Source of the DNA: Carettochelys insculpta
Lineage: Eukaryota > Chordata > Testudines > Carettochelyidae
Assembly: GCF_033958435.1 (NCBI RefSeq)
Contig: NC_134139.1
Span: 201,607,501 to 201,671,500, forward strand
Direction of reading: 5' to 3'
Length of the DNA: 64,000 nt
Of this stretch, positions 1,134 through 63,460 are shown piece after piece (within the stretch, counting starts at the first letter, position 1; each line of letters begins with the position of its first letter). The notes beneath the pieces are model-generated. The model was not told the origin of the DNA and did no database searches. It worked only from the letters and a program-made list of their open reading frames with translations. Made by a program: the position numbers and the translations under genes.

Positions 1134-3915
1134 ATGAAGATTTTTTACCTTCTCTTTGCTGTCTTCTTCCTGGTGCTGCAAAGCACTCCAGGTAAGATCC
1201 TAAGGAAATGAAGGGAAAAGATACAGGGATGTTTGTGAACTAGAACTTTGTATCATATTTTCCAATATTTTTCTCAACGTTAGTATGGTTTTCAGTGGGG
1301 ACATAATATATGACTGGAGAATAGCCCATGGGTCACAAAGGTGGCATTAATGTGCCAGTTAGGATTCTATTTAGATTACGCCCAACTATGACTTTCAATA
1401 ATATTTCTAATGTTTTGCCTGTTGTAGTCAGAAACGGACTGGTTCTTGGGTCTATGATAGTCATTTATTTTTCTCAAGGACCTGGGAGAAAACATGACAT
1501 CATCAACTTTAAAGTTTGCAGGTGATAAAAATTATGGGAAAATTCACAGTTACAAAAGGTATTTAGATCCCTGGAGCTGCGTCTACACGTGCACGCTACT
1601 TCGAAGTAGCGGCAGTAACTTCGAAATAGCGCCCGTCACGTCTACACGTGTTGGGCGCTATTTCGAAGTTGAAATCGACGTTAGGCGGCGAGACGTCGAA
1701 GTCGCTAACCCCATGAGGGGATGGGAATAGCGCCCTACTTCGACGTTCAACATCGAAGTAGGGACGTGTAGACGATCCGCGTCCCGCAACATCGAAATAG
1801 CGGGGTCCTCCATGGCGGCCATCAGCTGGGAGGTTGAGAGATACTCTCTCTCCAGCCCTTGCGGGGCTCTGTGGTCACCGTGGGCAGCAGCCCTTAGCCC
1901 AGGGCTTCTGGCTGCTGCTGCTGCAGCTGGGGGTCCGTGCTGCATATACAGGGTCTGCAACTAGTTGTTGGCTCTGTGTATCTTGCACTGTTTAATGAAA
2001 GTGTGTCTGGGAGGGGCCCTTTAAGGGAGCGACTTGCTGTTGAGTCCGCCCCGTGACCCTGTCTGCAGCTGTGCCTGGCTCCCTTATTTCGATGTGTGCT
2101 ACTTTGGCGTGTAGACGTTCCCTCGCTGTGCCTATTTCGATGTTGGGCTGAGCAACGTCGAAGTTGAACATCGACGTTGCCAGCCCTGGAGGACGTGATG
2201 TTATTCATCGAAATAGGCTATTTCGATGAATAACGTCTACACGTCCTCCAGGGCTGGCAACGTCGATGTTCAACTTCGACGTTGCGTGGCACCACATCGA
2301 AATAGGTGCTGCGAGGGTACGTCTACACGCCAAAGTAGCACACATCGAAATAAGGGTGCCAGGCACAGCTGCAGACAGGGTCACAGGGAGGACTCAACAG
2401 CAAGCCGCTCCCTTAAAGGGCCCCTCCCAGACACAGTTGCACTAAACGACACAATATACACAGAGCTGACAACTGGTTGCAGACCCTGTGCCTGCAGCAT
2501 GGATCCCCAGCTGCCGCAGAAGCAGCCAGAAGCCCTGGGCTAAGGGCTGCTGCCCACGGTGACCATAGAGCCCCACAGGGGCTGGAGAGAGAGCATCTCT
2601 CAACCCCCCAGCTGATGGCTGCCATGGAGGACCCAGCAATTTCAATGTTGCAGGACGCGGATCGTCTACACGGTCCCTACTTCGACGTTGAACGTCAAAG
2701 TAGGGCACTATTCCCATCCCCTCATGAGGTTAGCAACTTCGACATCTCGCTGCCTAACGACGAAGTTAACTTCGAAATAGCGCCCGACGCGTGTAGCCGC
2801 GACGGGCGCTATTTCGAAGTTAGTGCCGCTACTTCGAAGTAGCGTGCACGTGTAGACACAGCTTCAGTGTGTTGATTCAGGAGGCTGTCAGTGACCTGGA
2901 GATTCAGTTAATGATAAACACCCCCCTGTTGCCATCACAGATTTTGTATATCCTGCTGTGTGAAGGAAAATCAAGACTCTTTTCTCTGTGTGCAGGATTC
3001 TCCGACCATATCAATAACTCATTCGCATGTTACCGGGCCAAAGGCAGATGCCTCCGTTACTGTCCCTTCGGTTTTTCAGCTATCGGATCTTGCAGTTTTA
3101 TGCAGCGCTGCTGTAGGGGGTGGAGACGGGTAAGTTCAGGATTTCACGCACAAGACATCCCCACATAAGCAGAATATGCGTGTTTGTCCTTCCTGGAGCT
3201 GCTCTTCAAGGCCCTGGGAAGCTCTGAACACATGGCACTTGGGACACTGGAAAAAAGTAATGTTTGTGCTCCTCTGGTTGTGGTCTATGTGTAGTTAATG
3301 GGTTAGAGGAACTTTACAGCTGCTTTACCCAGGACATTGATGGCCTGCCCACAGACTGCAGCTGCACCAAGTCTGCAGAGTGCATAGTGCTAGAGAGAGT
3401 GCCTGCCTGAAATTCCAGTGATGTGCTATGGGGCAAAGGGAGCACTGTCCCAAGGGCTTGCAGTTTCAAAAGCATCCAGGGCTCCTGAGCACAGCCATCT
3501 CTACTTCACAAGCAGCAGCAGCCAGAGGCCCAGGTCCTTTAAATTCCCACCACAGCTCTGTGCTGCATATTCCAGGCAGCTAGATGGGCTGCTGGGGCAA
3601 GGACCGGAGTGGAGTGCTCTGGGCGGCACTGAGAGCTGGCTGCTGTAGCCCCACCCCTTCTACCAGAGGCCCCACCCCTTATGAGTGCAGAGCCACGCCC
3701 CCTTGACTCCCCTGTACCTGTGATCACTTGCACCACGCAAGGATGGGGATTACACAGAGGGTAGCATTGGGTCAATTATGTGTCTGCATTCACCATTCAG
3801 TAATAGGGAAATTCCTGCTGTGCCCTCCATTTGAAAAGTAATGTTTTTCCTGTTCTCATTTAATGGCTATGAATGGAGTGTGACAGTGTATTCCTCTTTT
3901 TAGTTCACAGAGTGA
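1134..3915 (+). CDS. beta-defensin D1 (three coding exons)
   Basis: Predicted secreted antimicrobial beta-defensin of 67 residues. Exon 1 is 1134-1191 and ends in a GTAAG donor. Exon 2 is 2996-3129, entered at TGTGTGCAG and left at CGG|GTAAGT. Exon 3 coding is 3904-3915 after TTTTTAG and adds Phe-Thr-Glu-stop. Residues 1-19 form a hydrophobic signal peptide (LLFAVFFLVLQS core); the mature part begins near Gly20-Phe21 with no acidic propiece. Cysteines are at 31, 38, 42, 52, 58 and 59, giving C-x6-C-x3-C-x9-C-x5-CC, the classic beta-defensin framework, with Ile-Gly-Ser before Cys4. The peptide is cationic (Arg/Lys-rich, tail RGWRR). ATG follows the conserved leader directly. Intron 1 (~1.8 kb) holds a palindromic transposon. 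It appears functional; the exact orthologue is not recognisable by eye. Confidence 0.9.
1575..2863. mobile_element. head-to-head inverted dimer of a Harbinger-like element
   Basis: About 640 bases (1575-2216) are repeated in reverse complement at 2218-2863 around a near-perfect centre (GTTATTCATCGAAATAG, base G2217, then its complement). Outer ends read AGCTGCGTCTACACG and its complement GTGTAGACACAGCT. Each arm matches the monomer at 28795-29484, including the GGGGCCCTTTAAGGG-type block and the CTACTTCGAAGTAGC block. It lies in D1 intron 1. Open frames inside it are shadows. Non-autonomous; no transposase seen. Confidence 0.8.
3130..3903 (+). other. D1 intron 2
   Basis: Intron between D1 exons 2 and 3, GT..AG. 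Reading straight through the donor gives a short open tail of 12 codons before a stop, which is also present in D2 and D5. The rest (3230-3770) is unremarkable single-copy-like DNA, similar in part to D2 intron 2 around 14.3-14.8 kb. Confidence 0.7.
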
Positions 3916-11123: not shown

Positions 11124-11409
11124 GACACTCTCTGTCTCCACTCTATCTTTTAGTCTTTTCCTTTCAGTGAACTTGAGTTCCCAGCCAAACTTCAGCCATG
11201 AGGTTTCTTTACCTTCTCTTTGCTGTCTTTTTGCTGGTGCTGCAAAGCTCTCCAGATAAGATCATGATGAAATGAAGGGACAATATACAGGGATGTTTTG
11301 TGAATCTGTTCTTGGATTTCCTCGAACTCTGTATCATATTTTGTACTTTTTTTTCTCTAAACCATAGTATGGTTTTTTGCAGGGACTTGGTATTTGACTG
11401 GGTAAATCA

Positions 11410-12440
11410 TGAGATGGAAAAATTTGCAGATGATATAAAATGACTCAAGATAGTTAAATCCCAGCTAGACAGCAAAGAATTAGAAATGGATTGCACAAAA
11501 CTGTTACTGGGCAACCGGATGGCACTTGAAATTCATTGCTGACCAATGAAAAGAAATGAACATTAGAACACATAATACCAGCTCAACATACAAAATGCTG
11601 AGGTCTAAAAAAACACTGAGGTCTAAATAGTTATTACTATTCAAGAAACAGGTGGTGGAATCATTGTTAGTTCTCTGAACACATCTACTCAATGTGCTAT
11701 GGCAGTCGTAAAACTGAAGAGAATGATTGGAATCATTAAAAGGGCGTCGAGAATAAGACAAAAATACCATATTGCCTCTATATAACTATATGTACCTCTA
11801 CATCTTGAATACTGCCTGAAGACATGGTCACCCCATAAGATATATGAGAATTGGGAAAGGCTCAGAAAAGGGCACCAAAGGTTATTTGGGGTAAGGAAGG
11901 GTGTCTGTATGAGTAGAGATCAAAAGCACTTGGTCTTTTCAACTTGGAAAAGAGAAGACTAAGGGAAATATGATATGTGTCTATAGGTGGAGAAAGCAAA
12001 TAAGGAACTCTTATGTACTCCTTCTGATAAAACAAAAAACAGGAGTTACCAAATGAAAGTAGTAGGCAGTAGGCTTCAAACAAACAAAAGGAAGGATTTT
12101 CACACAATTTACAATCAAACTGTGGAATTCGTTTCCAGAGGATGCTATGAAGGCCAAAAGGATTCAGACAAACCAGATAAGTTGAGGAAGGACGGGCCCA
12201 TCCGTGAGTCTTAGCCAGGCTGGTCAGGGATTCAGCTCTGTGCATGTGTGTGTGTGTGTGTGCTTTGTTATCCCTGAGATGGGAATGGATGTTAAGGGAG
12301 GAACCATTTGTTGACTGCTTGTTCTGTTCATTCTCCCTGGAACACCTGGAAGTGGATGAGGTTGGAGGACAGGATGGGCTCATAGGTCTGACTCAGTGTG
12401 ACCATGTTCTTCTGGGCCTGCAATCTATGCATCTATGTTT
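11410..12440 (+). mobile_element. CR1-type LINE fragments in D2 intron 1
   Basis: Decayed ORF2 C-terminal region (block around 11700-11960 with AAGATATATGAGAATTGGGAAAGG) followed by a 3' end with AAAGTAGTAGGCAGTAGGC and GGATGCTATGAAGGCC. The same arrangement occurs in D3 intron 1 at 22560-22632 and 23031-23945, so the insertion preceded the D2/D3 duplication. Confidence 0.7.
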
Positions 12441-13773
12441 CAACATGCCAAACGGAGCTGAACATCTGTGGAGGACATACAAGCTATGTTCTTTTACTTT
12501 GGCCTAACAGTGAAAATACTGTTTGGTTGAGGGGACTGAAGTATTGAGAACCTTCACTTGAGCTCATTGGCTCTGTGCATTGTCATATAATTAATGAAAT
12601 AAAAGGTAAGGTGTGAGCTTGTACTGTCCAGGTATACACTGAACAACAGAAGATGCACATTTCTGTGAATATGGCTAGGACTGTGAGCCAGCTGGTGTCG
12701 GTCCACAAGGAAATTCAGGAGTGAGTTGCTGGATACATTCCTACATTTCAGCTTGCGGGGCACTTTACAAGCTGTGCATGAACAGGATGAAAAGGAGTTG
12801 CTGTCATAATAAAGCAGGTGGGGGACAACCTACACTGAAGAGCAGAGAGGACATGGCTGTTTATCTGTCCAGACTGCACCCTACAGAATATCACAGTGGA
12901 TAATTTAAGGAAGGTACCATCTATTTTAAAACAGTCTAATATTAATCTCCTAAAGGGCCATATTATAGCGAGGACCAGTATGCCTGGAATTTCTAAGTCT
13001 GGCATTTGGTCCCTGAGGAAGTATTCCCAAGTGCTTATGTAAGCCACATACCATCCAATTGTGGTGTACTTTCCCATCCAGTGGCACTGAGATCATGCAG
13101 TGAGAGAATAGTGTGTCTGATCTATAGCCACTGCAAATTGGATACCAGCTGTTAGCTCATGCAGCAGAGGCTCCTGCATTAAGAGCCAGGGGTCTCAGAT
13201 TTCCTTCTGCCTGCCGGAATTAAATGGAATCTTCATCAGTATGTCTGTGGAGTCACACAGATGTTTCAGCTTTCCTCACTTGAATGGGCTTGTTCAAACC
13301 CTTCTCCCAGCCACACAACCAGTGCTGAGCCAGTTCACCTCAGCTCAGCCAAACAATGTTTAGATACTGCCCGGTACATCCGTGTTAGGAATCAGAAGGA
13401 GTCACTGCCACTGCAGCAGACACTGTGAGAAGCCGGCAGTGCAGGCAGCTGCCTTGTTTCCATCCTTGTTTCCATGGGGAGCAGGAGGATGGATGAAGGA
13501 CCCCCTTACCCAGTGCCAAGGTAAGGATCCAACCCATGTGATGAATTAACTGCCTCTGTGCAGTTCTCAGGGGCAGCTGCTGAATGGGCTCAGAACTACA
13601 GACATGTAGAGTACCAAGTGAAAGGGGGCACAAGACAATCAGTGGGCTGACTTGGGGGTCTGTCAATGACCTGGAGATTCAGTTAATGAGAAACACATCT
13701 CGTGTTGCAGTCACAGCTTTTGTGCATCCTGCTGTGTGGATGAAAATCCTGAGTCTTCTCTATCTGTGTACAG
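12440..13773. other. D2 intron 1, 3' part
   Basis: Non-coding. 12890-13060 matches 24470-24620 (D3 intron 1) and, more weakly, 61020-61130 (upstream of D6 exon 2). 13140-13215 has a weak tRNA-like GTTAGCTCATGCAGCAGAGG stretch. 13550-13700 matches the approach to exon 2 in the other genes. Confidence 0.6.
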
Positions 13774-13948
13774 GATTCTCCTGGCATATGAATAACCACT
13801 TGGAATGTTATCGTGGTGGAGGCTCCTGCCAACTTCTTTGTTTCTTCCCTTTTATAACTATTGGAACGTGCAGTTCTACACACATCTGCTGTGGCAGGAG
13901 GAGGGTAAGTTTAGGGTTCCAAACGCAAGACATCCCTGTGTAAGCAGA

Positions 13949-20825: not shown

Positions 20826-20995
20826 AAGACATATAAGGACAAAAGGGACTTCAATAAGTGACCAAGTCCAGCCTCCTGCACTGAGGCAGGACCAAGTAAA
20901 CCTGAAACATACTAAGCAGGGGTTTAACAAATGCTGTTCTTAAAAACCTCCATTGACAGAGACTCCACCACCTCCCTTGGGAGCCTCATCAAGAG

Positions 20996-21163
20996 CAGGA
21001 CCCACATGTCGGTGCCCCCTCCCACCCACAGGTGGTCCGGGCCATCAATCGCATCATCCTGCGGAGGGCCATCCGCCTCAGCAACTTGGACGACACCGCA
21101 GCCTCTTTCAAAATTGGGTCCCCTTTCTAAATTAATTTAGAAACAAGGGGCTAGTGTAGATGC
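20996..21163 (-). mobile_element. Harbinger-type fragment abutting D3 promoter
   Basis: Reads VVRAINRIILRRAIRLSN on the + strand, resembling the VVQTINRMILWRAICLGH stretch decoded from the transposase of the 51-53 kb element. It ends GGGGCTAGTGTAGATGCACCC, like MITE termini in this window. It includes a perfect 20-bp palindrome TTTCTAAATTAATTTAGAAA (21124-21143). It stops immediately before the D3 5'UTR homology (TCGTCTCCTCTCAGTCTTGG), replacing the TATA block of other copies. The element's own strand is uncertain. Confidence 0.6.
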
Positions 21164-21232
21164 ACCCTTCGTCTCCTCTCAGTCTTGGTGTCTTTTCTCC
21201 CAGCACATTGAGTTGCCAGCCTAACTTCAGCC

Positions 21233-24200
21233 ATGAAGATTCTGTACTTTCTCTTTGCTGTCTTCTTCCTGGTGCTGCAGAGCTCTGCAGGTAAGATCAT
21301 AATGAAATGGAAGGACAATATGCAGGGATGTTTGTGAGTCTGCTCTAAGATTTCCTAGAAGTTTGTATCACATTTGTCCAATTTTTTTTTCTAAACAGTA
21401 GAATGCTTTTCATCAGGGACACGATATTTGACTGGAGAATAGTCCAGAAGTCAGAAAGGTGGCATTAATGTGCCTATTAACATCTCTTCATATTTGTCTC
21501 ATCTGTGACTTTCAATAATATCGCTAGCCTTGTACCTAGCAGTCGCATAGGGACTGGTTCTTGGAGCTATGTTAGCCACTTTTTTCCTAAGGACCTGAAG
21601 GGAAACATGAGATGATCACCCATAAAATTTGCAGGTGACAAAAATTACAGGAGAGAGCGCTGATACGAAGGGATTTGGATCCCTGCGTGAGCTGAGCACA
21701 AGCAAACAATAAAAGTGAATTCTGCATATATGGATCTAGGAACAGGAAAGTTTGAGACATTTATGGGCTGAGGAACTCAATCCTGGGAAGCAGTGACTAT
21801 AGAAAAAAAGTATTTGGAGTCTAAAAATGGTTAAAAGCATCAATAGATATTTTGGATGCATAAAAATGGAAACCTAAAATAGAACAAGAGAAACTATTTT
21901 ACCTCTCCATTTCACGCTTCTATATTAATGTAGTCCGAGCCAGTGTCCTCATATCAGGAGTAGATCAGTTGGAGACGATTTAGATAAAAGTCACAGGAAT
22001 GATTATAAAACATGGCTGATAGTGATAGCCTCAGGAGTTTAATCTGTTTTTCTTAACCAAGTGGTTATTGCAATTGATGATTGCAAAAGTTTACCAAGGT
22101 CTGGACAATTCTCCATTTCTTTTCTTAAAGGACCATCTAAGTGCTCTGTCCTCTTATATAAGAGGTCAGATTAAATAATCACAGAGGTCCCTGCACACTA
22201 GATGGTTCCAGAGTTATTTCCTTTCCAAGCAAATTGGTTGAAACGATAGTAAAAAAGAGGATTATAAGCTATATAGATGAACATAATTTGTTGGAGAAAA
22301 GTTCACATTGTTTCACATGGAAATTATGCCTCCACAATCCATTTGAATTGTTTGGGTGGGTCAACAAATAAATGTGTATGGTTAATCCAATGGATATAGT
22401 GTATTTACACTTTCAGAAAGCCTTTGGCAATATCCCTCACAAAAGTCTCTACAGCACAGCAAGCAGCAATGGGACAACAGGCAAGGTCCTCACTTGGATC
22501 AGTAACTGGTTAAGTGATATAAAATAAAGGGTAGTAATAAATGGTTAATTTCAGAATGGAGATGTGGATAAATAGTAAGATGGCAAAAGCTGGAGATGAT
22601 ATAAAACTAATCAAGGTAGTTAAGTCCCAACCAGATAGCAAAGAGCTTGAAAAGAATTGGGTCAGACCAAAGGTCCATCTAGCCCAGTATCCAGTCTTCT
22701 GACAGAGGCCAATGCCTAACGCCCCAGAGGGAGTGAACAGAACAAGTAATCACAAAAGTGATCCCTCTCCTGAGATACATTTCCAATCTCTGGCAAGCAG
22801 AGGCTAGGGACACCATTCCTACACATCCTGGCTAATATCCATTGATGAAACTGACCTCCATGATTTTATCAAGTTCCTTTTGAACCCTCTTAAAGCCCTG
22901 GTCTTCACAACGTCCTCCAGCAAGGAGTTCCACAGGCTTACCATGTGCAGTGTGAAGAAAAACTTCCTTTTGTTAGTTTTAAACCTGCTACCCATTGCTT
23001 TCATTTGGTGTCCCCTAGTTCTTTTAATATGTGAACTTCAATGTTGATCAGTGCAAAGTAATGCACATTAGAAAACAGAATCCCAATTCTTCATATAAAA
23101 TGATGGGATCTAATATAGATGCTAGCACAGAAGAATTAGATCTTAGAATCATTGATAGTTTTCTGAAAACATCCACACAATCTGCAATGTCAGTCAAAAC
23201 AGTGCAGAGAATGTTTGGAATCATTAAAAAAGACGTGATCATAAGGCAAAAATGTCATATTGCCTCTATATAAAATTATGTTACGCCTACATCTTCAATA
23301 CTGCATGTAGGGGTGGTCAGCCTAGATATATTGGAATTGGGAAAGGATCAGAAAAGGGCACCAATGATGTTAAGGGGTATGGAAGGGTGTCCATATGAGG
23401 AGACATCAATAAGATGAGGACTTTTCAGTTTGGAAAACAGATTACTGAGGGAGGGAGACAAGTATTTATAAAATTGCAACTGGTGTGGAAAAAGTAAGCA
23501 AGCGTTATTTACTCCTTCTCATAATATGAGAACTAGGGGTCACCCAATGAAAATAATAGGCAGTAGACTTAACCAAAACGAAGGACTTTCGGACAATGCA
23601 CAGACAAACCATGGAACACCCACAGGATGTAGTGAATATCAATACAGGGTTCAAAAATGGACTACATACATTTTTGGAGGACAAGTCTGTCAGCGGCAGT
23701 TAGCCAGGATGGGCAGGAAAGCAACAACATGCTCTGAGTGTCCCCAGGCTCTGTTAGCCAGAAGATGGGCGTGGACATCAGTGGATGATTCACTTGATGA
23801 TTGCCAGTACTCTTCGTTCTCTCTGGAGCCCCTGTCATTCACTGATGTTGAGGGATAGGGTGACCGGGCTGGAGGGTCCTGTGGTCTGACTCAGGTTGGA
23901 CATTTTTACGTTCTTCTGTTATGTTCTCCTGGCCCTGAAATCTGAATCTATCAGCACTGACTATGCTGTGAATCTATGGAGCTGCGCGCGCATTGCTGTG
24001 TATGCTTCAGAGAGCCTAATAGAAGTGAACACCTGTGTGGGACACTGACAAGATATATCCTTTTGCTCTAGCTCAGTCCAATGAAAATACCCTTTAGCCA
24101 ACCCCTCTGGGGACTGAAGTGCTTGGAAGCTTCACTCAAGCTACCTGGCTCTGTGCATATCATTTTAGTTAATGAAATGGCAGGCATACTGGGGGCTTGG

Positions 24201-25235
24201 ACCGTCTGGACATACACTGAAGAATACAAGGTGCACATTTCTGTGGACTAAGTCTGGGACTGGGAGTTGGCTGGTGTCACTCTGCAGGATAATTAAGGAA
24301 TGAGTTGTTGGAAGTATCCCTACAACTTCTCTGGGAGTGACTTTACAGGCTAGGGGCTACGCATGAGCAGGGCAAAAGTGGTTGCTTGCACAACAGAGTA
24401 GTGTAGAAGGCATCCCCCATTTGAGAGCTGAGGGGACACAGCTGTTTAGCAAGCCAGACTGTACCCCTGGGAATGACAGAGTGGATATTTTAAGAAAGGT
24501 ACAAGCCATTTTAAAACAGGCTAATATTAATCTCCTAAAGGGCCACATTCTCATACGGACCAGCCAGCCTGGAATTTCTAAGCCTGGCAACCTGTCCCTG
24601 AGGGCATCTTCCCAAGTGCTTTTGTAAGACACACACTGTCTGGTTGTGGTGTACTGTGCTGAGGCCACTTACAGAGAGAATAGTGTGTCTGCTCTATAGC
24701 CATTGCTACTACCCAGCTGCCTGTTAGCTTAGGTGGTAGAGGCTCCTGAACTAAGCTCCAGAGGCTCCAGAAATGGTTCTACCTCTCAGCATTTGACCAC
24801 ATCTCCACAAGTGTGTCCATGCAGAGTCTCACAATCAGATGCGCTCACAGGGTGTGGCTTGTCCAAACCTTTCTTTTCATAGAAGTTCCAGCCAACCAAC
24901 CCAGAGCTCAGCCAGTTCACCCTTACTCAGGCACATAACTACAGCCATTTGAATATTGCTAAAGATCTAGAGAGAGTGGGCACAGGACAGTAAGTGGACT
25001 GACTTGGCCAACTTTCAGTCAGCTGGAGATCCAATTAATGAGAGATGCACCGTGTGAGGCAATCCCAGCTTTTGTTTACCTTGCTGGGTGAATGAAAATC
25101 AAGGCTCTTTTCTTCCGTGGAGGACTCTCCGACTTTTACTGTACATGTAGACGCGCTGGGGGTTACTGCAGCTTTAAAGGCAAACATTCTTCAAGGACTG
25201 GAACTTGCGGTTATGCAGTGAACTGCTGCAGATAG
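21233..25235 (+). CDS. defensin D3 with alpha-defensin-like cysteine start
   Basis: Predicted secreted defensin of 56 residues. Exon 1 21233-21290 (donor G|GTAAG) encodes the usual signal peptide. Exon 2 starts at 25123 after CCGTGGAG and its frame ends at TAG 25233-25235; the exon itself ends at a GTGAGT donor (25241). Cysteines are at residues 26, 28, 35, 48, 54 and 55: C-x1-C-x6-C-x12-C-x5-CC. Compared with D1/D2/D5, canonical Cys3 is Gly (GGC), a new Cys lies two residues before canonical Cys1 (FYCTCRRAGGYC), and about three N-terminal residues are missing. The C-x-C-R-R-A start resembles mammalian alpha-defensins, but downstream spacing is beta-like. Six cysteines are retained, so folding is plausible. 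Exon 3 is non-coding and has lost the family's TGA. The acceptor has G at -3, a weak context. Confidence 0.85.
21291..22632 (+). other. D3 intron 1, 5' part
   Basis: Start of intron homologous to D1, D2, D4 and D5 (AAAGGTGGCATTAATGTGCC, also near 1340 and 35965). From ~21950 it holds decayed LINE-like sequence with no usable frame. Confidence 0.6.
22633..23030 (-). mobile_element. LINE 3' end inserted in D3 intron 1 (minus strand)
   Basis: Reverse orientation of a common reptile CR1-type 3' end (plus-strand hallmark GTCAGACCAAAGGTCCATCT and CACAACGTCCTCCAGCAAGG). A plus-oriented relative is at 58116-58440. It splits the older intronic LINE that is continuous in D2, so it inserted after the D2/D3 duplication. 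Confidence 0.75.
23031..23945 (+). mobile_element. CR1-type LINE fragment in D3 intron 1
   Basis: ORF2 C-terminal remnant: NVDQCKVMHIRKQNPNSSYK, then a frame through ..TVQRMFGIIKKDV.., then a 3' end paralogous to 11990-12430. Full of frameshifts; not expressed protein. Confidence 0.75.
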
Positions 25236-25269
25236 TGGAGGGTGAGTACAGAGTTCCATGTGTCAGCTC

Positions 25270-26231: not shown

Positions 26232-26418
26232 TCCCCACAGGGAGAGACGGCAGCAGAGACTGATAATGCAGATCTCTGGGAAGCCGGCAGATCACTCCTT
26301 GCTTCTAAAACCATGGGATGCTTTTCTTCTGGTCTGCAAAGAATCTCATAAACCATAAAAAATCCACAAGGGAGCCCTTGTGTCACTCCAAACAGCTTGC
26401 TCTTCTGCTTTTAATAAA
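26232..26418 (+). other. D3 non-coding exon 3 and poly(A) signal
   Basis: Acceptor TTTTTTGTAG at 26231, then TCCCCACAGGGAGAGACGG, homologous to D1 exon 3 where the TGA stop is replaced by GGA. AATAAA at 26413-26418 within CTGCTTTTAATAAAAGTCACTGC. The D3 stop lies in exon 2, so this exon would be 3'UTR only. Confidence 0.7.
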
Positions 26419-35040: not shown

Positions 35041-35738
35041 CGGGAAGAAAGAGGAAGAAGATTATGAGGAGAGATGTTACCAAGGGCTCTGGAAAGCTTG
35101 ACAAGGGTTTGAATGAATATGACCCAGAAAGGTCAGGTGTCCAAAGCCTCTATGCCACCCTTAGAAATGCTCGCATATTTACCTGGCTGCAATTTAAGTC
35201 CAATCACTTCTTGTTATTTGTTTTATATCACATTTTTTTAAAAAATAATCTCTTCTTATAGGTTTGGTTGCGTTAAATTTAAAATTTCCATAAACACATG
35301 TAAAATGCTAATTAAATATGGCACAAAATTAATCCACAGATGCACACAGCTATAGCCAGTGCTTCCTAGGAACTGCTGTGTTCCGAAATTCCTCTCTGCA
35401 CTTGCACCCTGGTTTAAATGTTATGGGAGGCATTTCTTTGTCTTCAAAGGACTTTTAATCACACAATAGATGTTTGCTAGGTGTAAATTTGCATATTACA
35501 ACTAGTAAAAGAATTGTTAAATGTATTTTCCCGAAATTCTCCAGGAACATTTATGGTGCTGCACAAGTAATAATCAAGATTACTAACTGTTGGAGCACAA
35601 ACTTAATAAACGTGCCATGTCTGAAAACAGAATTTCAACAGATCCACATTTCACAATTCCCAGCAGCCCACACACACTCTCTGTCTCCTCTTGGAGTCTT
35701 TTCCCCCAGCAACACTGAGTTCCAGACAAACTTCCGCC
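35041..35738 (+). repeat. defensin-unit upstream region of D4
   Basis: Homologous to the upstream DNA of D5 (44520-45199) and D6 (59900-60640), and to D2 (10920-11197). Near the expected TATA the sequence reads CCCACACACACTCTCTG instead of CCCATAAATAGAGAC, so the core promoter element is lost. Confidence 0.65.
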
Positions 35739-35796
35739 ATTAAGATTTTCCACCTTCTCTTTCATGTCTTTTTCCTGGCACTGCAAAGCCATCCAG
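35739..35796 (+). pseudogene. beta-defensin D4, exon-1 relic
   Basis: 58 bases align base-for-base with the other exon 1 copies and keep a good donor (CCAG|GTAAGATC), but the start codon is ATT instead of ATG and the signal core has a charged-type change (LLFHVFFLALQSHP). The TATA block is also lost. Intron-1-like sequence continues to ~36230, where a minus-strand LINE begins. No exon 2 with the six-cysteine pattern was found before the next unit at 45.1 kb. A dead remnant. Confidence 0.85.
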
Positions 35797-36237
35797 GTAA
35801 GATCAAAATGAACTGAAAGGGCAATATAGAGAGACATTTGTGAGTCTATTTTAAGGTTTCCTAGAACTTTATATCATGTGTCCAATATACTTTTTTCTGA
35901 ACAGTAGTATGGTTCTCAACAGGAACTTGACATGTGAAAGAAGAATAGTTCAGAAATCAGAAAGGCGGCACTAATGTGCCTATTAAGATCTATTCAGATT
36001 TGGCTGTTTAAATATCGCTAACATTGCACCTTCTGAAGTCCCAAGACACTGGTTGTTGCTGTTATGCTACTCGCTTATCTTCTCAAACACCTGGAAGAAA
36101 ACATAAAATCGTTCCCTGTAAAGTTTGCAGGTGACAAAAATTGAGACAGGTCAATGATGCAGAGGGATTTGAATCCCTGGTTAAGCTGGACACAAGCAAA
36201 CAATCACAGAGCTAAATCCACATATATATGGCCCCTT

Positions 36238-45199: not shown

Positions 45200-48100
45200 A
45201 TGAAGATTCTCTACCTTCTCTTCGCTGTCTTTTTCCTAGTGCTGCAAAGCTCCCCAGGTAAGATTTTAATTCAAATGAAGGGGCAATATACAAGAACATT
45301 TGTAATCTGTACTAAGGTTTTCTAAAGAATAATATACTTTACATCTGTGTGGAGAACAGTTCTGGGGTGAGAAAAATGACTGTAATGCACCTATTAAGAT
45401 CCACCCAGATTGGACTGTAATAATAACACTAGCATTCTACTTGCTGGAATCCTATAGGGATTGTTTTTTGTCACTACGCTAATGAACTTCTTAATAAAAG
45501 ATCTGGAAAATGCATAAAATTGTCCTGGGGGGGAGGTAGATATGCTGTGCAGTAGGGACAGGGTCCAGAGTGACCTAGGCAAATTGGAGGACTGAGTCAA
45601 AAGAAATCTGATGAGTTTCAACCAAAACAAATGCAGAGTCCTGCACTTAAGACAGAGAAATCCAAAGCACTGCTATGGGCTGGGAAACAAAGGGCTAAGT
45701 AGCAGTGCAGCAGAAAAGGACTCAGGGATTACAATGGATGGGAAGCTGGATCTGAGTCGACATGTGCCTTTATAGCCCAGGAGGCTGACAATACATTGGA
45801 ATGCATTAGTAGGAACATTGCCAGTAGAGCTAGGGGACATCCTGCATAGGTGTGGGGCTGTGAAAGGCACCTGTGTTCAGCACGACAATTCTGAAATGTG
45901 CAGCCCGGCGCCCAGCACATTTGCTGAGTTAATTTCCTCTGGTCAGTTCTCAGGGGCAGTTGCTGAACGGGCTCACAACTACACCTATGTATACGTTATC
46001 ATGGTGAAAGAGGCCTAGGAAGATTATTGGGTTGACTTGCTCTTGTCTCTGTGAACTGGCAGTTCAGCAAATGGGAAATGCCCCTCCTTCTACAATCACA
46101 GCTCTTGTGTGTGAATGAAAATCAACATTATTTTTCTGTGCGCAGGATTCACCCAGTGGATCAATAACCCCAGCGCATGTGCAAGGGCTCGGGGCTTCTG
46201 CCGCCGTCTATGTATTGGCCAAGTAATAACAATTGGAACCTGCGGTCAGGGGCAGAATTGCTGTAAAAGGAGGAGGGTAAGTTCAGGGTTCTATAAACCA
46301 GACATTAGAGTGTAAACAGACCATTGGTGTCTCTCCTTTCTGTAGCTGCTGTTTAATGACCCTGCAGGCTCAGAACACACAGTGCCCCCCTGGGGTAAAG
46401 GAAACTTTTCTCATGTCCTGATTCCAGATTATCCCCAGTTTATATGTCTGCACTTACCAGGAAATCAACCTGGTCAGGGTCAATCTTCCAAGTTCAGTTT
46501 CACACATCTGGTAAAGACACATGAAGGTGATCTCTCTGGGGTCCATGGTTGACCCCCTGTGTTCCTCCTTTCACGAGGAGTAAGGGGGGTTGACAAGAGA
46601 AATGCTCCTGTTGATGTCCCTCAGTGAAGACAGACTATACAGTAAACTGTCTTGATTCTAGCTATGCAATTGCCATAGCTAGAATTGCATATCTGCAGTT
46701 GACTATAAGATGAAGAACAGGCCAAGCCTTAGGGTAACCTGATTGCTATTTTACTAAGGCTGACTGCGGCCTGTCCTTAACTCAGAGCAGCCCAGACCCT
46801 CCACAGTGCTCAGTGCTGCAGACCTTGCTCCTCTGAGATGCAGCAACACTCAGCACCATCCCAGGATAGTGGTCGCATAGGGAAGTTACAAAAGATATTT
46901 ATAGAATCTTAGACTCATAGACTCAAAGAACAGTAGAATTAGAAGGTACCTCGAGAGGTCAGCAAATCCAGTCTCCTGTCCCCATGGCAGTACCAAACAC
47001 CATCTACACCATTCCCAATAGGTGTCTATCTAACCTGCTCTTAAATATCTCTGGTGATGGAAATTCCACAACTTCCCTAGGCAATTTATTCCAATGTTTA
47101 TCCACCCTGAGAGTTGGGAAGTTTTTCCTAATGTCCAACCTAAATCCCCCTTGCTACACTTTAAGCCCATTGCTCCTTGTCCCAGCCTCAGAGGCCAAGG
47201 AGAATGATTTTTCTTCCTCCTCCTTGTAACCCTCTTTTAGATATTTGAAAACCGCTATCATGTCCCTTCTAAGTCTTCTCTTTTCTAACCTAAACAAGCC
47301 CAGTTCTTTCAGTCTTTCTTCATAGCTCATGCTCTGTAGACCTTTAATCATTCTTGTTGTTCTTCTCTGGACCTTCTCCAATTTCCCCACATCATTCTTG
47401 AAATGCAGTGCCCCGTGCTGGACACAATACTCTGCTTGAGATCTAATGAGTGCTGAGTAGAGCAGAAGAATGACTTCTTATGTTTTGCTCAACACTCCTG
47501 TTAATGCATCCCAGAATCATGTTTGTTTTTATCATTCATCATTCATCATTCATGGATTGCAGTTACTCTAAAAAAGCCTTTTCAAAGCCCCTCTAGATTG
47601 ACAACAGGGACTCATACAGAGCTTCTGGAACCAGGCCACAGCATACATCTACACTGTTGTTTCATTTAAGCATATGGAGAACAACAGGAAAGAACAACAG
47701 TAAATTTCCCAGGAGAGAGCCGGGGGCGAGCAGCACCTTTCAAAACAAAACAGTTTTTTAAACCGTATTTATCCCATAATTAAATATTTATGGTTTTAGT
47801 TTCAGCTATGGATTAAAGTGGATTTCAAGGTACATTGTACATCGGTGTGAATCCTGTTTTAAATATTTTTGGATTTGTATTTATATTCCTTACAGAGATA
47901 ATCAACATTTTATACTTCCCCTTTTTATATAAAACCCATCAAGAGAATGTCAAATTTCAAACTTTTTTTTTAAATTGATGAATATTTCAATGATATTGCC
48001 AATAGCTTTCATTTTTTAATTGTCTGTGATTATTTTTATTTTTTGTGGTTGTCACTTTAACTGCATAAAAATGTTCACAGGAAGGATTTTTTAAAGAAAA

Positions 48101-49930: not shown

Positions 49931-50450
49931 TGAACCCCCACAAGGACCCAAGCAATGTCAGTTACTTCTGCGAGCTGACACATTTAGCTTGTTCTCCACT
50001 CTGCACCCCAGATTACTTTCTACAGCTCTCACTCCTTGGCAGGTATTTCCTATTCTGCATGTGTTCAACTCATTGTTCCTTCCTAAGCAGAGTAATTGGC
50101 ATTTGTCCTTATTAGATTTCATGCTGTTTACTTCAAACCATTTCTCCAGTTGGTCCAGATCTTTCAGTCCTCTCCCTCAATGCTCCTGCAGTCCCTCTCA
50201 GCTTGTATCAGCCGCTGACTTTGTGAGTGCAACCTCTGTGCTTTTAGCCAAACCACTGATGAGAGACATTGAACCAAACCACACCCAGAACTCATCACTA
50301 TGTGGCCTCACTCGATAGGTCCTTGCAGCTTAACTGAACCACTGATAACTTCCCTATGGGATTGGATTTGCAGCCACCTATGCGTTTACTTTATAGGAGC
50401 TGATAGGAGGCTTTCCCTTTATCCCCTCTCCTGTTTCTTGTTATGCAGAT
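49930..50450 (-). mobile_element. CR1 LINE internal fragment (minus strand)
   Basis: Plus strand shows CTTATTAGATTTCATGCTGT, ACCATTTCTCCAGTTGGTCC and ACTGAACCACTGATAACT, typical of the reverse strand of the CR1 3' region. 50450-51215 has only a weak hAT-like stretch (GGGGTCTGCAACCTGCAGC at 50820). Confidence 0.65.
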
Positions 50451-51216: not shown

Positions 51217-53345
51217 TAGTTGAAAAGACACCCCCCACCCCACCCTCTGTCTTTTGAAAGGGAGCATCCACACAGCAACGTGATCCCTTTCGAATTAACA
51301 AGCCAGGAGGAAACACCACGCATGGGGTCACATGGCTGACAAGCCCTTCCAGGTCCCACAACCAGCATCTCCCTTAAGGGCCTCCTCCCAAATACACCCC
51401 CCTAAGGCGAACTCCTAGCCAAACTCCCTGTTAGCTGCACCTGTTTGCTGCTCACAGTATTCGCTGTGGCTGCCTTCTGATAAAGCTTCTTGTTAGCTGT
51501 GTTGGCTAAGTTATGTTCAGTAAACCATTGTGTTGTGCACCCTGGTGTCCCCTGAGCATGCATGCGCTGTGATGCAGGGTGGGTGCATGGGGGGCTGTGA
51601 TGTGGGGTGGGTGTGGGCCGGTGGGTGCCAGGGGCAGGGTCAGTGAGGCTCCTGGTCAAAGGCCTCCTGGACCCTAACCCTTTCCCTGTCTGCCTGGCGG
51701 CATGGAGCCATGAGCGGCTGCTCGTACACAGGGCAGCCTTCTGCAGCCCACCCCTGCATGAAACGCTCATGCTTGCCCTCCGCTATGTTGTGCAAAACAC
51801 AACAAGCTGCGACCACCCTGGGGCCATTGGGCAGGCTGATGTCCAGCCGTGCACTGAGGCATTGGAAGCACCCCTTTAGGAGTCCAAAGGCCCGCTCCAT
51901 GGTATTATGGGCGTGGTTCAGTCAGAGATTAAAAGCATCCTGGCTGACACTGGTGTGCCCTGTGTAGGGGAGCATCAGCCATGGATGCAATGGGTACCCC
52001 ACAATCGGCCACTATGCATGGTGGCATTGTGATGTCCCCCACAGGGAGTTCCCAGGCAGGGACCTATGTGCCCTCCTCCATGCAGTGCCCCAGCCAGGAG
52101 TTCCAGAATACCTGGGCTTCATGGGTTCGCCCAAAGCAGCCCAGGCAGATGTCGCTGAACCGGCTCCAGGTATCAACGAGGGTTTGCAGCACCACCGAGT
52201 GGTACACCTTGTGGTTTATGTAGTGGCCCGCGCGGTGGGCTCGGGTGCGGACTGCTATGCGGCTGCCGTCGAGGGTGCCAAAGTAGTTGAGGATCGTGAA
52301 TCCTGCCAAAGCACCATCTGGGTGCCCGAGGCAGATGGCCCTCCACAGGATCATGCGGTTGATCGTCTGGACCACTTGTGTTGTGGGGGGGGGCCCCAAC
52401 ATGCGGGCCTGCACGTCGGGGAGCCCTGGGGCACTCCATGCCCCTCCCCTGCAAGCCCCCCTGCCCTCTCCCCAGAAAGGCCCCCCTCCCTCTTCCCCTG
52501 CAGGGCTCCCCTGCACAGGGGCCCACTCCCCTCTTCCTGGAGTGGGTGTGGGGCCCTGGCCTGGCTTACCTCCAGGAGGGCGGCTGCGAGCCCCACGTGT
52601 TTCTCGACCAGGATTGCAGGCTGCATGCAGGTGTCCACGTGCTGCAGGGTGGGTGTGAGCCATTGGCACAGCTCCATGAATGTCTGTCTCAAAATTAAGG
52701 AGTTCTGCAGCCACCTTTTGTCATCCCACTGGCCCAGTACCAGCCCCTCCCACCAGTCTCTGCTGCTGGGGTGACTCCAGAGGTGCCATAGAGGATGGGG
52801 AACGGGGTGTGGTGATTGCCCTGTGGCCAAGGCCTGCAGAACCCCAGTGTCGGGTTCGTGGGCCGCAGGGCTTCCACCATGGCCAGGATAACCACGGCCA
52901 TCTGAGCCCCAGTGTCGGTGGAGGCATCAGCCTCAGGCAGCGGCAGGTGCTCCATGCGCAGCGACTTTCGCAGCACATGGTACCCGCAGCGCTGTCTGCT
53001 GCCCTGCTCTACTCTGCCGTGCGTGCGCAGGGTGGGTGTATTTGGGAGGGGCCCTTTAAAGGATATGCTGGTTGTGGGACCCAGAAGGGCTTATCAGCCC
53101 TGTGACCCCATGTGTGGTGTTTCCTTCTGGCTTGCTCTTTCGAAAGGGCTCGCATTGCTGTGTGGACGCTCCCTTTCAAAAGACAGAGGGTTGTCGGGGC
53201 TGGGGGGGCATGTCTTTCAAAACAGCTTACCGGTATGGCAGTCGACTTTGCGCGTGTGGCCACGTTATCTCAACATCCCTTGTTTCAATGTAGATTTTTG
53301 ACATTCCCCCTTTCGAGATTTGTGTGTGGTGCGGACACAGCCCGA
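51217..53345 (-). mobile_element. HARBI1-type PIF/Harbinger transposon, decayed
   Basis: Contains a minus-strand DDE transposase remnant. Subterminal inverted repeats of ~160 bp: 51237-51400 is the complement of ~53020-53195 (CCCTCTGTCTTTTGAAAGGG, GGAAACACCACRCATGGGGT). The right end extends further to GTGCGGACACAGCCC at 53345; the left end seems truncated. Plus-strand frames are shadows. Confidence 0.75.
51640..52714 (-). pseudogene. HARBI1-like DDE transposase, frameshifted
   Basis: Two minus-frame segments. 52714-52064 contains VVQTINRMILWRAICLGHPD, NYFGTLDGSRIAVRTRAHRA, YINHKVYHSVVLQTLVDTWS and DICLGCFGRTHEAQVFWNSW, the first half of a DDE_Tnp_4 domain (LDG and HEAQVF carry the catalytic-Asp region, though the usual HDA is HEA here). 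51900-51640 contains MERAFGLLKGCFQCLSARLD and VVAACCVLHNIAE, the third part with the catalytic Glu in ERAFG. They lie in different frames, with stops between. Dead copy. The gene would act in cut-and-paste transposition together with a Myb-like partner such as that encoded at 30243. Confidence 0.8.
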
Positions 53346-62883: not shown

Positions 62884-63460
62884 GATTCACCCAGAACTAC
62901 AGATGCATCATGGAATGCAAGCAAAAGGGTGGTCGTTGCTACTTTCCACAATGCCCCATAGGGACTTATGACCGTAGGTGCCGTTGTGATGGGTGCCATG
63001 CTGTAGGACGGTGTAGGGTGTGAGAAGAGTTTGTAACGGTCTCATGAGAGCAGATCGACCCCTCTGTGAATCCTCAGGAGAATCTAAAGAGACCAGTCTG
63101 TGCTAGGTAAAAAGCTGCAAACTAACTGCCATGGGAACAGCTGCAGAACAAGCCACGCTTGCCAAGATTTCAAGGCTACGCTGGCAGTAGGCCACAAGAG
63201 ATAGTGATAAGAAATGCATAGGCAATTTTAGGGAATCCTATGTTAATGAGCTCAGATTTATCAGCTAGTGTTAGGAGGCCTGTTACTGAGCCTCTCCCCG
63301 AGTGAAGCTCTGGCGCTTCGGGTCTTCTCCCACAGGTGACTGCGGCATTTCCGGGGCTCCTGCCGCGGGTGTCACGCGCTTTCAATAAACCAAATATAGC
63401 ACTCGCCTTCTGGGTGCAGCCTCACCTCTGGGGAACCCGAGCCTGGCTGGCTACAGACGG
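62884..63460 (+). pseudogene. beta-defensin D6, exon 2 disrupted by solo LTR
   Basis: Exon 2 begins at 62884 after TTTGTGAAG and reads Gly-Phe-Thr-Gln-Asn, an extra Cys (RCIMEC), then C-x6-C-x4-C-x8-C (KQKGGR between Cys1 and Cys2, PIGTYDRR before Cys4). Beyond Cys4 the expected Cys-Cys codons TGCTGT (63000-63005) are in another frame, so an indel is likely; the first frame instead runs to TGA inside the LTR. A solo LTR (63012-63455) is inserted after AGGACGG, duplicating GACGG so that an intact donor ACG|GTAAGT survives on its far side. The signal-peptide exon is missing upstream. Exon 3 would lie outside the window. A pseudogene in this haplotype. Confidence 0.8.
63012..63455 (+). mobile_element. 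solo LTR, copy 2
   Basis: 444 bp, TGTAGGGTGTGAGAAG to GGCTGGCTACA, target duplication GACGG at 63007-63011 and 63456-63460. It has ~45 bp more than copy 1 (15165-15564) around 63095-63145. AATAAA in TTTCAATAAACC on the + strand, same direction as the defensin exon it interrupts. Confidence 0.88.

Follow-up and report, generated by a model that had tools for sequence, protein, structure and literature searches.

A beta-defensin copy with a relocated cysteine in the defensin cluster of Carettochelys insculpta: rewired framework or recently silenced gene?

Most defensins hold six cysteines while the rest of the molecule changes. In a beta-defensin array of Carettochelys insculpta, one gene (D3) also encodes six cysteines, with one of them in a new place, and this raises the question of whether D3 specifies a different disulfide framework or one that is coming apart. 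The gene lies in the window, by which we mean the whole stretch of 64,000 nucleotides that was analyzed (contig NC_134139.1, positions 201,607,501 to 201,671,500); coordinates below count from its first base. The array surveys covered 264 kb, that is the window plus 100 kb on either side.

D3 is encoded on the plus strand. Exon 1 (21233-21290) contains the signal peptide MKILYFLFAVFFLVLQSSA and the first base of a glycine codon, and ends at an intact donor, GTAAGA. Intron 1 (21291-25122) ends in GAG. Exon 2 (25123-25241) encodes the mature domain, with the product LSDFYCTCRRAGGYCSFKGKHSSRTGTCGYAVNCCR followed by a TAG stop at 25233-25235 and a second donor, GTGAGT, at 25242. Splicing of the two exons yields the frame MKILYFLFAVFFLVLQSSAG-LSDFYCTCRRAGGYCSFKGKHSSRTGTCGYAVNCCR, which is open and in which no disabling lesion was found. 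An exon 3/3' UTR homologue, similar to exon 3 of array units U1, U2 and U5, spans 26232-26418 (its start being read off the sequence), with AATAAA at 26413. No damage is seen in the frame, the signal peptide, either donor or the polyadenylation signal, in agreement with what the first-pass annotation had said of the signal peptide, frame and donor. The predicted peptide has a charge of +5.

The cysteine spacing C-x1-C-x6-C-x12-C-x5-CC (1-6-12-5-0), also reported earlier, was confirmed in exon 2, with 25123 as its first base. The new cysteine codon (TGT, 25140-25142) is followed by C1 (TGT, 25146), C2 (TGC, 25167), C4 (TGC, 25206) and C5/C6 (TGC TGC, 25224-25229). The new cysteine is two residues N-terminal to canonical Cys1, and the position of canonical Cys3 is occupied by glycine (GGC, 25179-25181), so that five of the six canonical cysteines are kept, one is gained, and the total remains six. 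The stop comes after CCR, resembling the CCK end of the turtle protein P0012.

The closest comparator of D3 is the paralogue U-2, which lies outside the window and has its exon 2 at window coordinate -26812; its CRRAGGFCHFRC corresponds to CRRAGGYCSFKG in D3. Single-base differences separate Trp TGG of U-2 from the new Cys TGT, and TGC of U-2 from Gly GGC at Cys3. The earlier statement that one base turned Cys3 into glycine thus holds for U-2, but not for D1, D2 and D5 in the window, which have TGT (as does U-1) and are two changes away from GGC. Exon 2 of D3 also has two deletions, one of 9 nt just ahead of the new cysteine and one of a single codon between C3 and C4. On this alignment, the relocation of a cysteine within a beta-defensin array at a constant total of six, as originally described, can be accounted for by two single-base substitutions together with one deletion that preserves the frame. 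A 30-protein tree, built from six Carettochelys paralogues and all retrieved turtle proteins but P0014 (24 of 25), gave no firm placement of D3. An assembly or base-calling error as the source of the Gly and Cys changes is very improbable, as the many further D3-specific differences and the two in-frame deletions are what a long-diverged copy would show, and as a 301-base query around exon 2 had a single match in the whole 2.18 Gb assembly, namely itself.

The domain had been called alpha-defensin-like. Alpha-defensins have the spacing C-x1-C-x4-C-x9-C-x9-CC (1-4-9-9) and the disulfides 1-6, 2-4 and 3-5. D3 shares with the mammalian proteins the C-x1-C near the N-terminus of the domain and the six cysteines, as would be expected of an independent alpha-like form, convergent or intermediate. 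However, all other spacings differ (1-6-12-5), and the gene sits in a beta-defensin array. Alpha-defensins keep Cys3 and have Cys1 beside Cys2, whereas D3 has lost Cys3 and added a cysteine ahead of Cys1. The alpha-defensin Pfam domain was not matched at E<=1 by the 47-aa frame or at E<=10 by the exon 2 peptide, in a search in which the HMMER filters discard most weak matches. Defensin_propep (PF00879) matched three of 25 alignment members (best E 0.016) and not the D3 peptide; NCBIfam searches with D3, D5 and three turtle proteins gave no match.

The beta-defensin consensus is x2-10 C x5-7 (G/A) x C x3-4 C x9-13 C x4-7 CC (PMC2883079). With glycine at Cys3, D3 lacks one of its six canonical cysteines, and because the beta pattern is 1-5, 2-4, 3-6, the 3-6 disulfide is impossible. 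Against Defensin_beta (PF00711), D3 scored 11.7-12.9 bits, under the cut-off of 21, compared with 29.3-30.9 bits for its sisters D1, D2 and D5. Descent from beta-defensins is evident from the signal exon, 5' UTR, intron stretches, exon 2 and exon 3, which align to the sisters, and the layout, a signal-peptide exon and a defensin exon within a beta array, is that of a beta-defensin gene.

Structure prediction pointed in the same direction. AlphaFold2, run on alignments of D3, D5 and 23 turtle proteins (all of the 25 but P0018 and P0021), predicted a beta-defensin-like fold of a helix and three strands for D3 (mean pLDDT 77.7, five models 56-78); the control D5 reached 83.5 (models 78-83.5). In a Foldseek comparison, which is weak evidence since no match of D3 beats E 0.001 and the model depends on aligned canonical defensins, ranks 1-19 were all beta-defensins (TM 0.58-0.74; human 1, 2, 3 and 6, avian, mouse and crocodile), while the alpha-defensins ranked lower at 0.40-0.50. 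Platypus Int-DLP scored 0.56, and two beta-defensins ranked under 19 scored 0.65 and 0.43. The top four matches of D5 were beta-defensins (TM 0.73-0.80). On spacing, Pfam and fold comparison, alpha-defensin membership of D3 was rejected. The likeness comes down to the C-x-C, and the convergent or intermediate form appears extremely unlikely.

Alpha-defensins are described as known in mammals only (PMC6716921; PMC9138766). A C-x1-C start in a reptile beta-defensin is already published, in Komodo VkBD20 with the spacing 1-3-9-7 (PMC6716921). Like D3, VkBD20 is a gene of a reptile beta-defensin cluster with a C-x1-C start and six cysteines. It keeps C-x3-C-x9-C and is therefore closer to the alpha pattern than D3, which is without Cys3 and has an extra upstream cysteine (1-6-12-5). 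According to the same source, which cites its authors' unpublished data, all surveyed reptiles vary in domains, exons, cysteine spacing and/or cysteine number (PMC6716921).

The loss of Cys3 sets D3 apart among the turtle defensins compared. The searches retrieved 25 other turtle proteins, including P0019 from Carettochelys; every one keeps Cys3, and a cysteine two residues ahead of Cys1 was found in none. The 264 kb were also scanned with no requirement for Cys3, and low-complexity and unrelated, non-defensin matches were removed by eye. Cys3 was present in 11 of 11 other defensin-like exons (one belongs to the broken gene D2); only D3 lacked it, and only D3 had a C-x-C start. One further apparent C-x-C, in a fragment at 50056, is interrupted by a stop and was judged by eye to be fortuitous. 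The matches of the protein database searches included no protein with the D3 framework. Cysteine gain as such is not rare among these defensins, since the turtle proteins P0017, P0018 and P0019 have an extra cysteine in the pro-region and the Carettochelys exons at window coordinates -37400 and 119912 also carry extra cysteines. The former of these exons, CRFAGGFCCCRCVPCYISIESCGFAQSCC, has nine cysteines, Cys3 among them. D3 resembles turtle beta-defensins (PF00711; Chelydra G0U57_017740, Gopherus, Pelodiscus) in its signal peptide, RAGGYC-type core, G-x-C ahead of C4 and CC end, and within the Carettochelys genome it also agrees with its sisters in gene structure and array. It differs from them in the missing Cys3, the cysteine two ahead of C1, the score below the Pfam cut-off and the lack of the common promoter block.

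The family promoter block is present at 10 of the 13 signal-exon loci in the 264 kb (counted after removal of two non-Met signal-scan matches). It is absent at D3 and at two divergent loci, which carry TATA motifs of their own, leaving D3 as the only one of the 13 loci without both block and TATA motif. Of the seven plus-strand array units, U-2, U1, U2, U5 and U7 carry a TATA motif exactly at -81 relative to the ATG, whereas U3 (D3) and U4 do not. Nine of the 13 loci have the motif; those without are D3, U4 and two minus-strand loci. The 130 bases ahead of the D3 ATG contain none. The 5' UTR stretch at 21164-21232 (plus strand) is retained, with blastn matches to U1, U2, U4, U5 and U7. Homology to the sister promoters starts at 21163/21164, just 3' of the expected TATA site, placing the breakpoint in the interval 21128-21163.

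Directly upstream of D3, at the site of the promoter block in most sisters, is transposon-derived, PIF/Harbinger-like sequence (20957-21127, plus strand). Part of it, 20995-21079, is 82.6% identical to 52412-52328. The latter belongs to a region with DDE transposase fragments (PF13359) on the minus strand (51643-52720), where the frame at 51643-51921 matches DDE_Tnp_4 with 40.7 bits (cut-off 24.8) and the frame at 52067-52720 stays under the cut-off with 19.1 bits. The fragment upstream of D3 itself had no match in Pfam. We take both the element at 51643-52720 and the piece ahead of D3 to be PIF/Harbinger-like.

The GAG acceptor of exon 2 is a further peculiarity. GAG splice acceptors are rarely used in vertebrates, and among six sister exon 2 acceptors four were CAG (D1, D2, D5 and U-2), one was AAG (D6) and one, in U-1, was unclear. 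Judged from the sequence, D3 shows the loss of regulatory and splice signals that is characteristic of pseudogenes (no block, no TATA motif, GAG acceptor), which may affect its expression. The first-pass annotation contained neither these losses nor the 9-nt and one-codon deletions. Its argument against simple decay stands as far as the frame, signal peptide and donors are concerned, but the missing promoter and the GAG acceptor take away some of its force. TATA loss by itself is not diagnostic of a dead gene, because the two minus-strand TATA-less loci, with intact ATG, have just a degenerate CTACAARTAG at the TATA site. D3 could also have acquired a new promoter. The survey of the 13 loci provides evidence both ways and left the odds of the readings unchanged.

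We consider it probable, at about 60%, that D3 is a recently silenced, lineage-specific beta-defensin copy in the Carettochelys chromosomal cluster. Its reading frame would have been under constraint through most of its history, and its transcription would now be weak or nil, placing D3 at an early stage of pseudogenization within a birth-and-death array. The swapped cysteines may then be an early result of relaxed constraint and not an adaptive alpha-like framework. Silencing is suggested by the unique lack of both block and TATA motif together with the GAG acceptor, and by the constancy of Cys3 in turtle proteins and array exons combined with the absence of the D3 framework from the database matches. 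The intact frame, signal peptide, donors and polyadenylation signal and the charge of +5 argue against it, as do the limited diagnostic value of TATA loss and the chance of a new promoter.

The state of other array units, all on the plus strand, also favors a silenced copy. D1 (1134-3129; exon 1 1134-1191, exon 2 2996-3129) and D5 (45200-46276; exon 1 45200-45257, exon 2 46146-46276) are canonical, with the spacing 6-3-9-5-0 in D1. By comparison, D2 has lost a donor, D4 its start codon, and D6 its frame and exon 1. D2 (11198-13904) has a canonical exon 2, but the donor of its exon 1 (11198-11260) has changed from GT to AT (CCAG/ATAAGA), and normal splicing may fail. D4 (U4) consists of an exon 1 relic (35739-35795) without TATA motif, with ATT in place of ATG, and exon 2 was not found across the next 9 kb; from these two defects the unit is, on its sequence, dead. 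The D4 region (35590-36227) retains the promoter block. D6 is represented by exon 2 (62884-63023), which is apparently frameshifted; exon 1 was looked for and not found. Its interpretation as an eight-cysteine defensin was rejected, as a frameshift is probable and the canonical CCR end is in a different frame. Eight more defensin-like exons, four of them on the minus strand, were found in the 100 kb on either side, so the cluster runs well beyond both ends of the window. In the array units between 1134 and 49361 conservation is highest in the signal exon, and exon 2 diverges between sisters more than the adjacent intron, synonymous sites included, which suggests diversifying selection and/or homogenized introns.

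The history of the D3 frame speaks against long decay. Both deletions in exon 2 are multiples of three, compared with 13 among the 101 gaps seen in alignments of the flanking non-coding sequence, and the signal exon diverges from D1/D2/D5 by 0.10-0.14, as against 0.18-0.23 for D4. In neutral simulations at 0.14 substitutions/site, a three-point estimate of the D3 branch length, an open frame with exactly five canonical cysteines and at least one new cysteine was obtained in 1.9-7.0% of runs, and the share of runs whose frame stayed open and kept five or more canonical cysteines was 7-28%; at 0.30 substitutions/site the D3-like outcome fell to 0.2-2.1%. Neutral decay over the whole branch is therefore unlikely by simulation, and the present state is not expected after long neutral drift, although recent death is compatible with it. 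From the deletions in threes and the simulation, D3 probably functioned through much of its past, which is not proof that it does so today. Ratios of dN/dS, based on about 26 synonymous sites and an exon 2 dS exceeding intron divergence, were 0.77-1.40 for D3 pairs, tending higher but overlapping the 0.47-1.34 of other pairs, and this overlap gives no clear case for positive selection on D3 and is in line with silencing. Non-Cys dN was 1.00-1.25 for D3 pairs vs 0.57-0.76 among D1, D2 and D5; it could reflect selection for change, and non-synonymous divergence is high across the whole array. Together with the in-frame deletions, the low signal-exon divergence relative to D4 and the improbability of whole-branch neutral decay, the raised dN counts against a silenced copy.

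In a less probable alternative, D3 is expressed and functional with rewired disulfides, possibly driven by transposon-derived regulatory sequence. Were C1-C5 and C2-C4 to be retained, the new cysteine would be left to pair with C6, and the resulting nested 1-6/2-5/3-4 pattern would match neither the alpha nor the beta arrangement. The intact frame, signal peptide and donors, the charge, the in-frame indels, the even number of cysteines, the raised non-Cys dN and the predicted beta-defensin-like fold would all suit such a peptide. The nested pattern is known from the six-cysteine ascidian peptides turgencin A and B (PMC7024374), which are presumably unrelated to D3. The lost block and TATA motif and the GAG acceptor argue against rewiring, as does the lower and less consistent model confidence (77.7 vs 83.5 for D5). 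In the D3 model both C-x-C cysteines are placed within one helix and should thus face different sides. A more specific version, in which the transposon swapped the promoter and brought D3 under new control, and in which the loss of Cys3 was compensated by the upstream cysteine in a secreted cationic peptide with the nested 1-6/2-5/3-4 pairing, we regard as rather unlikely. Its nested pairing would differ from both alpha and beta, and the table of Komodo defensins in PMC6716921 lists no 1-6-12-5 spacing.

D3 might also be expressed without three intramolecular bonds, its unpaired cysteines forming covalent dimers as in mouse Defr1. In Defr1 it is reportedly Cys1 that is missing. Like D3, Defr1 is a beta-defensin without one canonical cysteine, and with five of the six it forms a covalent dimer of potent antimicrobial activity (PMC2883079). 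D3 also retains five canonical cysteines, but it has six in total, not five, as the lost Cys3 is offset by a replacement. Given this and the promoter and acceptor lesions, a dimer seems quite improbable.

The cysteine swap in D3 shows either the rewiring of a disulfide framework or its collapse once a gene falls quiet, and the promoter evidence points to collapse. D3 also cautions against calling "convergent alpha-defensins" from cysteine patterns alone. If D3 transcripts exist, the gene would offer a straightforward natural experiment on whether the fold survives the relocation of a cysteine pair.
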